A stretch of DNA of 64,000 nt from an uncultured Roseobacter sp. (lineage in GTDB: Bacteria; Pseudomonadota; Alphaproteobacteria; Rhodobacterales; Rhodobacteraceae). The stretch is taken from assembly GCF_947493125.1 (NCBI RefSeq), contig NZ_CANLQB010000001.1, positions 372,001 to 436,000 on the forward strand, written 5' to 3'. The position numbers were made by a program, and so were the translations under genes. The notes under the pieces are model-generated. The model searched no databases, was not told where the DNA came from, and saw nothing but the letters and a program-made list of their open reading frames with translations. This document shows positions 16,213 through 21,492 of the stretch, in pieces; position 1 is the stretch's first letter; each line of letters opens with the position of its first letter.

Positions 16213-16221
16213 TGTGGATAA
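16213..16221 (-). other. perfect DnaA-box 9-mer
   Basis: TGTGGATAA on the plus strand is the complement of TTATCCACA. It is a single copy, upstream of the HNH gene promoter. A lone box may be chance or a minor DnaA target. Confidence 0.35.
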
Positions 16222-17118: not shown

Positions 17119-18606
17119 GTGTCAGGTAGGCATCATGGGCTGTCTCGGCTCGACCAACTCAATAAAATCTGTCTGCAAGGTGGGGGGCCATCGAAGCCCT
17201 TTGCGCAAACCCTGGGTCGGCTCATGCCGCCCAATCCGGTGCAGATCAAGAACATCACCCATGCCGATGTGATCCATGCGCTGGATGACCTGTCGCAGAC
17301 CATGCGGGCGACTGACAACGAGGATGGCCACGCCGACGCGGGGATGACCTTCCTGGGGCAGTTCGTCGATCATGACATCACGCTGGATGCGACCTCGGCA
17401 CTTGGCACGCGGATCGACCCTGCGACCATCCCGAACGTGCGCACGCCGAGCTTGGATCTCGACTGTGTCTACGGCGCCGGTCCGGAGGCCTCGCCGCATC
17501 TCTACGGCGCCGGCGCGCAGGACCATATGCTGATGTTCGGTCGCCACGAGAACCCGCTGGATCTTGCGCGCACCTGCGCCGGCAAAGCGCTGATCGGCGA
17601 TCCGCGCAACGATGAGAATGTGATCGTGGCCCAGGTGCAGGGCCTCTTCATCGAGCTGCACAACATCCTGATGAGCAAGCGGGTCGAAGACGGCGACGAG
17701 GCCAAGGACATCAAGGCCTGCGCCCACGACGGCATTGCCAAGCACGTCTGGCACGACCATGTGGCGCCGAAGCTTGCAAACTTCGAAGAGGTGCGCCGCT
17801 TTATCCGGCTGCATTACCAGTGGATCGTCTGGAACGAGCTGCTGCCGGCCTTTGTCGATCAGGCCTGCCTCGATCACGCGCTGCATCACCATCTCTTTGG
17901 CTGGGACGCGCCCGTGATGCCGGTTGAGTTTACCGGCGCCTGCTATCGCTTCGGCCACGCGACGACGCAGTTCGCCTACGCGATGCAGGAGTCCAAGACG
18001 GCGGTGGGCCTCTTCGACACCGTGGGCTTCGGCAAGCGCCCCCCGACGAACAATATGGACATGCACATGTTCTTCGGGATGACCGGAAAGGCCGCGGCTC
18101 AGAAGGCGCGTCCGGTCGGGCCGAAACTGGGCGAGCCTCTCTTCATGCTGCCTTTTGTAAACAGCACCATTGATCTGGCCGAGATCGAACACACGCTAAC
18201 GGTGGACCAGTCGCGCAACCTCGCGCTGCGCAACATGGTGCGCGACCGCTATACCTATCAACTGGCCAGCGGCCAGCAGGCGGCGGCGCGCCTCGGCATC
18301 GACAAGCACGTGCATGTGCCCGATGCGCTGAAGGCCAAGGGCATCACCAAGACCCCCCTGTGGTTTTATGCGCTGCAAGAGGCGCAGGAGCACGGCGGCG
18401 GCAAGCTGACCGGTGTCGGCGGCACGATCGTGGCCGCAGTCTTTGCGAACCTGCTGAAGCGGGATTCCACCACCTACCTGCACATCCCGCACTTCAAGCC
18501 GTGGGGCGGTTTCGGCGGGCAGCCGAGCTGTATGGCCGGCATCGCGGCTTACGTCGAGAAGCATCGCGGCCACATCAAGGATCCCAAATCTCTGATGTGT
18601 GGCTGA
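17119..18606 (+). CDS. animal-type haem peroxidase
   Basis: 495 residues of the animal haem peroxidase (peroxidase-cyclooxygenase) superfamily. The distal site is FLGQFVDHDITLD, with the catalytic His and calcium-binding Asp. Next comes LIGDPRNDENVIVAQVQGLFIELHN, corresponding to the conserved RxNE segment. The proximal His is likely in CYRFGHATTQFAY. GTG start at 17119 has AAGGAG eight bases upstream. No signal peptide and no RTX repeats are visible, so export is unclear. Likely activities are peroxide-driven oxidation of halides or phenols. It stands alone with an AT-rich promoter. Confidence 0.88.
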   Translation: MSGRHHGLSRLDQLNKICLQGGGPSKPFAQTLGRLMPPNPVQIKNITHADVIHALDDLSQTMRATDNEDGHADAGMTFLGQFVDHDITLDATSALGTRIDPATIPNVRTPSLDLDCVYGAGPEASPHLYGAGAQDHMLMFGRHENPLDLARTCAGKALIGDPRNDENVIVAQVQGLFIELHNILMSKRVEDGDEAKDIKACAHDGIAKHVWHDHVAPKLANFEEVRRFIRLHYQWIVWNELLPAFVDQACLDHALHHHLFGWDAPVMPVEFTGACYRFGHATTQFAYAMQESKTAVGLFDTVGFGKRPPTNNMDMHMFFGMTGKAAAQKARPVGPKLGEPLFMLPFVNSTIDLAEIEHTLTVDQSRNLALRNMVRDRYTYQLASGQQAAARLGIDKHVHVPDALKAKGITKTPLWFYALQEAQEHGGGKLTGVGGTIVAAVFANLLKRDSTTYLHIPHFKPWGGFGGQPSCMAGIAAYVEKHRGHIKDPKSLMCG

Positions 18607-19888: not shown

Positions 19889-19905
19889 TTATCCACTGTG
19901 GATAA
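19889..19905. other. two back-to-back DnaA boxes
   Basis: TTATCCACT (plus strand, 19889-19897, one mismatch to TTATCCACA) overlaps by one base a perfect box on the minus strand (TGTGGATAA, 19897-19905). A run of nine A bases follows immediately. Confidence 0.6.
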
Positions 19906-19972: not shown

Positions 19973-19981
19973 TGTGGATAA
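19973..19981 (-). other. third DnaA box
   Basis: TGTGGATAA is a perfect complement of the 9-mer TTATCCACA. It lies eight bases before the CtrA-type box. Confidence 0.55.
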
Positions 19982-19988
19982 CCAAGTG

Positions 19989-20004
19989 TTAACACATTCT
20001 TAAC
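19989..20004 (+). promoter_or_regulatory. CtrA-type binding box
   Basis: TTAA (19989-19992), seven bases, then TTAAC (20000-20004) match the alphaproteobacterial CtrA consensus TTAA-N7-TTAAC exactly. It is centred about 83 bases before the start codon of the repeat-peptide gene, a position suited to activation of its promoter. Confidence 0.6.
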
Positions 20005-20079: not shown

Positions 20080-20361
20080 ATGAAGACCAACGCTTTACTG
20101 AAAACATCCACCATTGAAGAGACCTTTGACTGTGAAACAGACCTGCACTGCGGGAAGGGGACAGATCTGTTTACGACCAGCATGGGGCCGGCAGGATCCG
20201 ACATGATGAGCGGAGAGGCAACCGGCCTGTTCACGACCTCAATGTGCCCGTCGGTCGATACGCTCTCGGGCGCGGAAACTGGCCAGTTCACCACCAGCAT
20301 GGTGCAGGGCCGCGATGCGCTCTCCGGCGATGCCACCGGTCTTTTCACGACCTCCATGTAA
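20080..20361 (+). CDS. 93-residue peptide with four FTTSM repeats; candidate multi-core precursor
   Basis: An unrecognised small protein. A leader of about 27 residues (MKTNALLKTSTIEETFDCET and on, with Cys18 and Cys24) is followed by four repeats ending in FTTSM at 31-35, 51-55, 70-74 and 89-93. The consensus is SG-x-x-TGLFTTSM, with a linker containing Asp. The last repeat ends exactly at the stop codon. The repeats differ at synonymous positions, which suggests selection on the peptide rather than recent DNA duplication. GAAAGGGA precedes the ATG by six bases. There is no signal peptide. A modified-peptide precursor is one reading; an array of binding motifs for the next gene's protein is another. 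Confidence 0.85.
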   Translation: MKTNALLKTSTIEETFDCETDLHCGKGTDLFTTSMGPAGSDMMSGEATGLFTTSMCPSVDTLSGAETGQFTTSMVQGRDALSGDATGLFTTSM

Positions 20362-20370
20362 CTCTAGCCT

Positions 20371-20399
20371 TGGTCCGGGAGCCTTTGGGTGCCGGACCA
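20371..20399 (+). terminator. hairpin between the peptide gene and its partner
   Basis: TGGTCCGG (20371-20378) pairs perfectly with CCGGACCA (20392-20399) around a 13-base loop, ten bases after the peptide stop codon. Without a T-run it is more likely a partial terminator or mRNA 3'-end protector, setting a higher level for the peptide than for the downstream gene. Confidence 0.5.
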
Positions 20400-20442
20400 G
20401 ACGCCATGCGCGGCAACCCTGCAGGACAAAGGAAGAACCCCC

Positions 20443-21492
20443 ATGTCTAACGTCGTCTCTCTGGGGTTGCCGCGCAGACCAACTCTGGCACAACGCCAAG
20501 CGCTTCTGATCGGAAACTTCGCCCGCAATCGTCGTCAGCCAGATGACGTTTTCTGGCTGAAGGAGAACGCCGAAGTACTGAATGTGCTGGCGTCGAGTGG
20601 CGCGATGCTGTCAGACAATGCGTTTGAACCGTATCGGCGGATCTACGATGGGTTGGAAGAACGGCTGCATTTTTTTCCGCAGTACTACCGCTTCTTGCTG
20701 TCGATATGCCTTGATCTCGAAGATCTGGGGATCGGCCAGAGCAGGGGCACGGCGCTGTGCAACTGGGTGGCGAAGAACGGTCTTGTCGAGGCCGAATTGT
20801 CGGATTTGCAACGGGCCGAAGCCCAACGGTTGCTCGGCCGCCGGGGTGCCGCGGTAGAGGACCCGCACCTCCAGACCCGGCTGCACAAATTCATCGACCG
20901 CTCGGAGACCTTCGCCCTACCAAACAAAAAGGCGGCCTATGAGCTGACTCATATCATCTTCTATCTGTCGGACTACGGCGTGAAAGATCCGGGCCTCAAT
21001 GAGGCCACCATAGTGAGCCTCGAGTTCGCAGGGCTTCTGGCCTATCTCGATCAGGATGTTGATCTTCTCGCCGAAACCTGTGTCGCCATGCGTTTTGCCG
21101 GCAAACGCCCGAGCGCAATTTGGGAAGACTGGATTGCTGGCCAGATGCGCGGCTTCACGCTGAGCGACCGGGTGGCCGGCACCTCAGATGCCTATCACGA
21201 ATATCTTGTTACCAGCTGGTGGGCGCTTTTTGCAGACCGCCCCAGTTTCCCGGGTGTGCCGTCACAATCAGGGCTGCACATCTTGCGTCACACCACCCGT
21301 CGCAGCCCGTTGCGGGCAATGTCGGAATGTATGTTTCACCTTGGCCCCGCGCGCAGCAGCGACTGGAGTGAGATGCGACAAGCGATGTCCGACGCCATAG
21401 GAGTGGATGGTGAGGATATCCTCAGTGAAGCCGAGCAATCCTCTGATCGGTTCGATGCCTTCTTCGAAGGATTCTCTCGCGCAGATGTATAA
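20443..21492 (+). CDS. unrecognised 349-residue protein paired with the repeat peptide
   Basis: I cannot place this protein in a functional family. It appears mainly helical and cytosolic, with no signal peptide or membrane segment. Conspicuous segments are FWLKENAEVLNVL (37-49), AYELTHIIFYLSDYG (165-179), with a Glu/Thr/His and aromatic pattern, and YHEYLVTSWWALF (251-263). An acidic tail follows. No ATP-grasp, radical-SAM (CxxxCxxC), LanM or YcaO motif is visible. Start 20443 follows AAAGGAA by nine bases. It lies 81 bases after the peptide gene on the same strand, so the two are probably one transcript and functionally linked. Confidence 0.8.
   Translation: MSNVVSLGLPRRPTLAQRQALLIGNFARNRRQPDDVFWLKENAEVLNVLASSGAMLSDNAFEPYRRIYDGLEERLHFFPQYYRFLLSICLDLEDLGIGQSRGTALCNWVAKNGLVEAELSDLQRAEAQRLLGRRGAAVEDPHLQTRLHKFIDRSETFALPNKKAAYELTHIIFYLSDYGVKDPGLNEATIVSLEFAGLLAYLDQDVDLLAETCVAMRFAGKRPSAIWEDWIAGQMRGFTLSDRVAGTSDAYHEYLVTSWWALFADRPSFPGVPSQSGLHILRHTTRRSPLRAMSECMFHLGPARSSDWSEMRQAMSDAIGVDGEDILSEAEQSSDRFDAFFEGFSRADV

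Follow-up and report, generated by a model that had tools for sequence, protein, structure and literature searches.

A small gene in the window, the whole 64-kb stretch of roseobacter DNA analysed here, encodes a peptide with four FTTSM cores, and the gene behind it encodes a protein of the Pfam family DUF6902. The two are likely to be a precursor and its modifying enzyme. Taken whole, the statement that they form a two-gene RiPP-type maturation system, in which a multi-core precursor is served by a modifying enzyme that is probably an epimerase, is held with moderate confidence. The pair occurs in many marine roseobacters, usually at one chromosomal place, and its core motif is species-specific and near-identical within the cell, which suggests a previously undescribed processed peptide.

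The repeat peptide and its partner protein

The peptide gene (20080..20361, + strand, stop codon included) is an open reading frame (ORF) of 93 aa. A leader-like N-terminal segment occupies residues 1-30 (20080..20169, +) and is followed on the same strand by four FTTSM cores: core 1 at residues 31-35 (20170..20184; codons TTT ACG ACC AGC ATG), core 2 at residues 51-55 (20230..20244; TTC ACG ACC TCA ATG), core 3 at residues 70-74 (20287..20301; TTC ACC ACC AGC ATG), and core 4 at residues 89-93 (20344..20358; TTC ACG ACC TCC ATG), with the stop codon directly after it. The spacing between them is 20, 19, and 19 residues. The preliminary description had credited the 93-residue peptide with four copies of (T)GLFTTSM; four FTTSM copies are present and the last is flush with the stop codon, but the longer form GLFTTSM is limited to copies 2 and 4, copy 1 reading DLFTTSM and copy 3 GQFTTSM. 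Its remark that the DNA of the copies differs silently is borne out, as a mean of 0.46 of the degenerate core codons are silently different between copies. The array exceeds chance expectation, and a six-frame scan of the 64-kb window and of 400 kb of the same genome for ORFs with at least three G-anchored identical tails found the window peptide and no second such ORF.

Across an alignment of 12 peptides of the genus, the leader is less conserved than the cores. Neither the window peptide nor eight homologues match any Pfam or NCBIfam family above cut-off. The AF2 model of the window peptide has a mean pLDDT of 44, which suggests that the chain is probably disordered; cores 1 and 2 are rendered as short strands, with pLDDT mostly below 50.

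The partner gene (20443..21492, +) begins 81 bp downstream on the same strand and encodes, as described earlier, 349 aa of what is here considered a putative core-modifying enzyme. The start used here is an ATG that relatives share; the mechanical ORF list instead begins the frame at a GTG, at 20389. The partner had been taken for a protein without recognisable motif or family, a view that has to be given up. It matches DUF6902 (PF21843) over model positions 1-351 of 351, with 471.5 bits against a cut-off of 27 (E 1.9e-141), and it also exceeds the cut-off of DUF6895 (PF21836), with 71.4 bits against 23.8 (E 1e-19); apart from these, Pfam returned only a sub-threshold DUF1510 match. DUF6902 is a Pfam family of unknown function and, judged by profile comparison, is homologous to DUF6895: hhalign of a profile of 55 DUF6902 proteins with one of nine DUF6895 proteins gave a probability of 97.9 and an E-value of 5.7e-13 over 215 columns. 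Apart from the start Met, seven residues are invariant in a joint alignment of 13 DUF6902 and DUF6895 sequences, namely Y166, H170, G179, D207, E211, Y251, and H252. The equivalents of these seven residues are invariant in the 9 DUF6895 proteins, and all except Y251 are invariant in the 55 DUF6902 proteins. The invariant His/Asp/Glu/His/Tyr set looks catalytic.

The AF2 model of the partner is confident (pLDDT 93, pTM 0.91) and nearly all helical. Foldseek found no match to it at E ≤0.001 in the PDB (best 0.034) or in a viral library; the weak, non-significant matches were TPR- or PPR-like. Sequence profiles of the partner gave no convincing PDB homologue, with one match at E 0.42 in one search and none in a second. 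Additionally, no family among the PADLOC anti-phage defence models matched the peptide or the partner at E 0.1.

Co-occurrence, distribution, and gene neighbourhood

A search of genome contigs confirmed 307 relatives, the best 80 of which were kept as loci. A repeat peptide lies just upstream on the same strand in all 80 (76 recognised by filter, and L048, L061, L070, and L024 identified separately), and likewise upstream of the 22 DUF6902 genes of the genus search. DUF6902 was present in 19/19 searched genomes of the genus; at the level of the order, 57 of 196 genomes have a match above cut-off, fragments counted, and at that of the class 3 of 240, all three from the family of the window; dgt, the control gene, was found in 196/196 genomes of the order. 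The plasmid collection held no DUF6902 match.

The order sample contained 139 genomes without a match above cut-off, and 50 of these, spread over genera, were read. At this chromosomal place, in the stretches upstream of dgt, the repeat detector found no ORF with at least three identical cores in any of the 50. As a control, with a threshold of three copies the detector recovered 74 of the 80 true peptides, and with a threshold of two it recovered 79, missing only L016, whose peptide is cut by a contig end. The co-occurrence that had been proposed as a check is therefore observed, and the arrangement by which a RiPP locus is recognised, a small precursor-like gene beside a putative modifying-enzyme gene with the two co-occurring, is seen in 80/80 loci, and the detector finds no such peptide at this place in any of the 50 partner-less genomes. 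The gap between xth and erpA is at most 210 bp in 19 of the 40 partner-less genomes with both genes in view. Moreover, the two genes have decayed together in G202 (L146), where the DUF6902 gene is broken into several pieces and an in-frame stop interrupts the peptide. A split DUF6902 gene was also seen in G078, over two contig ends (L147, L148); the core of its upstream peptide is STSSF after F or L.

The surroundings of the pair are largely constant among the best 80 of the 307 relatives, with neighbour names (xth-, erpA-, dgt-, argS-, and SPOR-like) assigned by reading the sequences. An xth gene on the minus strand stands upstream in 75/80 loci, and erpA (-) and dgt (+) stand downstream in 74/80. 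All five of xth, erpA, dgt, argS, and SPOR are present in 42 of the 80 loci, and no locus has them in any other order. Gaps in this pattern are mostly contig ends; the contig continues yet xth is absent in L017, and erpA and dgt are absent from L019, L029, L033, and L050 although the contig continues. Reading of the recurrent housekeeping neighbours of these 80 loci recognised no protease, no transporter or exporter, and no cyclase, nor any lasso gene (leader peptidase, macrolactam cyclase). The large ORF at 17119-18606 of the window, haem-peroxidase-like by reading, is near xth in only 2/80 related loci.

Core sequences within and between species

The core set comprised 117 loci, which gave 116 peptides and 718 cores (L113 was left out, its flank being cut), or 108 non-redundant arrays. 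Cores were counted with a regular expression favouring F/Y-anchored tails in a loose residue class, together with identical tails without G, and the uniformity statistics were repeated on G-anchored cores alone (658 cores in 108 non-redundant arrays). The STSSF core of G078 falls outside both definitions and hence outside the core statistics. As anticipated, repeat number varies, from 2 to 15 cores per peptide among the 116. The unit is mostly 19-21 residues long, with 8-residue mini-units in some arrays, and follows the consensus G-[DE]-[AG]-[TV]-x-[ML]-F-x-x-x-x, with A-P often next in relatives. The last core is flush with the stop codon in 99/116 peptides.

The expectation that FTTSM itself would be conserved across homologues did not hold up. 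It is the core in most loci of the near genus only, being absent from G004 and largely from G016, and elsewhere FSSGS, FTSGS, FTSSL, FTTSC, FVSAS, FCSAS, FTCGA, FTSWS, and others take its place. The 116 peptides show 30 majority tails after F/Y, the commonest being SSGS (29) and TTSM (18), and on a quick tree of 102 enzymes the tail has changed no fewer than 33 times (of the 116 rows, 13 were left out for length or identity, and then L107, taken from the wrong strand).

Within an array, the cores are very uniform. A single tail is found in 94 of the 116 arrays and two core types in the other 22. With G-anchored cores, 85 of 108 arrays are fully uniform, against a maximum of 4 in 1000 shuffles, and 1860 of 1995 within-array pairs (93%) have the same tail, compared with 11% of random between-genome pairs. 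This sameness extends to pairs whose preceding 15 residues are less than 50% identical, where 1303 of 1429 tails (91%) are still identical. Furthermore, the degenerate codons of identical cores differ in a fraction of 0.45 within genomes and 0.60 between them, with a median of 0.48 per genome. Recent tandem expansion is visible in some arrays, e.g. L014 and L073. A whole-array switch separates L013, with six FSSGS cores, from L015, with seven FTSGS cores, while their enzymes are 95% identical; the leaders are similar, several spacers are shared, and the cores all differ at one and the same residue. Since the last copy has ACT there and the other copies ACG, the switch is most simply explained by two or more separate events. 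Cores that stay uniform despite silent differences and despite changes between species are read as a sign of selection for sameness within the array.

Coevolution of enzyme and core was also considered. Among the 39 rows whose core has a small residue at position X2, 29 have F in enzyme column 255, compared with 4 of the 63 remaining rows. The best p-value was 0.0007 in 1260 tests, and 5 independent pairs gave a median p of 0.5; the association is non-significant after 1260 tests or by independent pairs, and is suggestive only.

Promoter and intergenic elements

Two perfect DnaA boxes precede the peptide gene, one at 19897..19905 and the second 76 bp downstream of the first at 19973..19981. 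Both are read on the minus strand as TTATCCACA; on the plus strand they read TGTGGATAA, at 19897 and 19973. PMC6699656 uses TTATCCACA as a DnaA motif for Rhodobacteraceae. The promoter set consisted of 73 upstream regions, namely the window and 72 loci, 8 of the 80 loci being left out for want of a usable xth anchor or start codon. At least one perfect box is present in 57/73 regions, where 0.26 were expected and at most 2 occurred in 50 Markov resamplings. A same-strand pair 76-77 bp apart is found in 29/73 and no perfect box in 16/73, and outside the boxes much of the upstream sequence is poorly conserved. No perfect box lies in the xth-erpA gap of any of the 40 partner-less genomes with both genes in view, in the G202 slot, or in the short slot of G078 with its split DUF6902. 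A third DnaA box, a single one, was noted at window position 16213.

Closer to the peptide gene stands TTAA-N7-TTAA (19989..20003, +), which we take to be a CtrA-type site. This motif occurs in 17/73 upstream regions, with 0.74 expected, and lies at -91 to -95 in the window and in the 13 loci titled Roseobacter. Transcription would probably answer to DnaA and, in this genus, to a CtrA-type regulator.

A replication origin was considered as another reason for the DnaA boxes and judged unlikely. The GC skew over G000:C1 200001-600000 is positive on both sides; it dips at about 340-420 kb and is slightly negative at 370-390 kb, and the minimum of the cumulative skew within the window falls near the peptide/DUF6902 locus. 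The dnaA gene is on another contig than the window, and the box region is probably not the origin but lies, in all likelihood, far from it. Just outside the window, G000:C1:460001-480000 (L183) has a GC content of 0.515, against about 0.66 before it and about 0.6 after it, and is possibly a genomic island.

Between the two genes, a stem search of 79 loci and the window found a 9-bp hairpin at 20370..20400 (+). Stems of 9-14 bp occur in 5 of 6 genus regions inspected, and a stem of at least 8 bp in 30/80 regions. The longest intergenic stem averages 7.7, against 6.1 in shuffles, and the folding-energy z-score is below -2 in only 5/80. A possible hairpin attenuator between the genes, present in several genus loci, is not significant overall, and a role of the hairpin in setting the peptide:enzyme expression ratio is a weak possibility.

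DUF6895 relatives and their loci

A DUF6895 protein is named as a lasso-peptide epimerase in the title of Shi et al. (ACS Catal. 2026), a work cited in PMC13352647. Ten DUF6895 loci were sampled, L143, L144, and L145 together with the plasmid loci L163-L169 (the sub-threshold L149-L151 stand outside the count), and they span Alphaproteobacteria, another part of the phylum, Bacillota, and Actinomycetota. In 7/10 the DUF6895 gene directly follows a small ORF, which is annotated in L163, L164, L165, and L166 and comes from the mechanical ORF list in L143, L144, and L145. For the others, L167 has a 62-aa ORF two genes further upstream, and no small upstream peptide ORF was identified in L168 and L169. 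By eye, several of the peptides share a leader that looks helical, and their cores read, for example, GPWYAY, GPWFVL, or AWDKYVL, with two cores in L144; these peptides are unlike the FxxSx repeats.

Some of these loci deserve separate mention. In L143 (5637-9888) the DUF6895 gene appears to belong to a biosynthetic cluster, together with two small precursor-like ORFs, an O-methyltransferase, a C70-type cysteine peptidase, and, by reading, an MFS-like transporter. The protein of L145, a locus from a different family of the same class, gives 6.2e-11 against DUF6895 and 8.4e-6 against DUF6902, the latter below cut-off. L165 and L166, on Streptomyces and Kitasatospora plasmids, encode longer DUF6895 proteins (577-584 aa); a type I polyketide synthase and a TIG-domain protein are encoded nearby, and each DUF6895 gene has a small annotated ORF upstream of it. 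Two adjacent DUF6895 genes form one run on a Streptomyces fungicidicus plasmid (L167, 4718-6600), with a cytochrome P450 gene upstream.

Proposed maturation and alternative readings

From this material we infer the following course of events. The small gene would yield an unstructured precursor with a leader of about 30 residues and then four spacer-core units. DUF6902 would bind this precursor and modify every FTTSM core. The likeliest modification would be an L to D inversion of one core residue by way of the invariant enzyme residues around H170, D207, E211, and H252, and is so judged because DUF6902 is homologous to DUF6895; as the DUF6902 chemistry, epimerisation is tentative, plausible rather than probable. 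Cellular proteases would subsequently free several copies of one short peptide per precursor. The core would stay constant within a species, since a single enzyme and/or a single receptor has to accept every copy, and would drift between species. Most likely, the peptide would serve as a signal or self-recognition peptide.

The probably disordered peptide, the C-terminal-flush core, and the DUF6895 homology fit a precursor with its enzyme. Counting against it are that no protease, exporter, or cyclase was recognised among the recurrent neighbours, whereas many RiPP clusters, though not all, contain such genes, that the peptides of DUF6895 loci are unlike the FxxSx repeats and three of their small ORFs come from a mechanical list, that the epimerase link goes back to one title, that Foldseek gave no solved relative which would back an active site, that coevolution is weak, and that 22/116 arrays have two core types. 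Of the multi-core model as first put forward, the co-occurrence has stood and kinship with DUF6895 has been added, while the conservation of FTTSM and the 'unrecognised' partner have fallen away. A more far-reaching version sees a vertically inherited, DnaA-regulated system of signalling or self-recognition in roseobacters, in which each disordered multi-core precursor would give several identical signals of the D-residue pentapeptide type, species-specific in sequence and changing across the array as a whole, and DUF6902 would be the founding member of a multi-core branch of the DUF6895 enzymes; this version is rather unlikely.

The best surviving alternative regards the peptide as a docking scaffold, an unstructured hub on which each FTTSM would bind one DUF6902 molecule with no chemical change. 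A hub would be in keeping with the sameness and even spacing of the motifs in a chain that is probably disordered, with a partner that is nearly all helical and whose Foldseek matches, weak and non-significant, are TPR- or PPR-like, and with recurrent neighbours among which no protease or exporter was recognised. However, the partner is related to a family for which an epimerase is reported by title, its invariant His/Asp/Glu/His/Tyr set looks catalytic, and in 99/116 peptides no residue separates the last core from the stop. The scaffold is accordingly considered unlikely, and the pairing of DUF6895 genes with small peptides across phyla is the main reason for preferring precursor plus enzyme.

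A structural repeat protein is improbable. It would form an amyloid- or coat-like assembly with the cores as strands, whose packing needs uniform cores, and DUF6902 would be its dedicated chaperone or maturation factor. Units of mostly 19-21 residues, uniform Thr/Ser-rich cores, and the AF2 strands at cores 1 and 2 (pLDDT mostly below 50) point that way, but by eye no secretion signal was recognised in the peptide, arrays go down to two or three cores, and the core often changes between species. Very improbable is a neutral origin, in which the pair would be housekeeping and unrelated to the motif and uniformity would come from repeat expansion and gene conversion in a fast-evolving small protein, as recent tandem expansion in L014 and L073 and the smaller synonymous difference within genomes than between them might suggest, because tails remain 91% identical where the preceding residues are less than 50% identical, identical cores differ at silent codons (median 0.48 per genome), and the copies of L013 and L015 appear to have been changed separately.

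Comparison with known systems

A search of the open-access literature found nothing in print on DUF6902, PF21843, PF21836, or the repeat peptide, nor on multi-core RiPPs of Rhodobacteraceae. A Sulfitobacter RiPP paper (PMC11278168) names the enzymes DUF692, P450, and S9 peptidase. Two kinds of system to which the pair can be compared are already known, namely multi-core RiPP precursors and, from a title, a DUF6895 epimerase. Like DUF6895 proteins, DUF6902 proteins share a homologous region of about 215 columns with seven invariant residues (13-sequence sample), and like 7/10 DUF6895 loci they have a small ORF immediately upstream. Unlike these loci, which mostly have a single Trp/aromatic core and varied settings, the DUF6902 loci have many uniform FxxSx cores and a largely conserved housekeeping neighbourhood. 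By reading, their recurrent neighbours include no recognised lasso gene, and the pair is not classed as a lasso-peptide pathway. PMC10406935 presents MslH as the peptide epimerase of MS-271; the likeness is that one enzyme epimerises a ribosomal precursor, which for DUF6902 would be the proposed case, and kinship is not claimed.

With the pairing, DUF6902, a family of unknown function, gains a testable substrate and chemistry. The 30 or more tails form a natural series for specificity studies, and core uniformity within the array, maintained through many between-species changes, is a clear example of intragenic sameness and calls for an explanation. The signalling reading, if true, would lie further from known kinds.

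Fungal alpha-factor-type pheromone precursors contain tandem identical copies. By analogy only, the roseobacter peptides resemble them in that copies are uniform within a species and different between species; unlike them, the peptide is bacterial, with no secretion signal seen and no receptor known. Multi-core RiPP precursors, such as those of cyanobactins and others, combine a leader and repeated cores with spacers in one small gene. The repeat peptide shares the leader, the repeated cores, and the spacers, with a candidate modifying enzyme adjacent. The DUF6902 loci differ from multi-core RiPPs in having no recognised protease, cyclase, or transporter, in usually holding one chromosomal position, and in carrying DnaA boxes in many promoters. 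Many RiPP clusters are mobile and patchily distributed, whereas the DUF6902 pair keeps much the same neighbourhood in numerous genera of a major family of marine bacteria.
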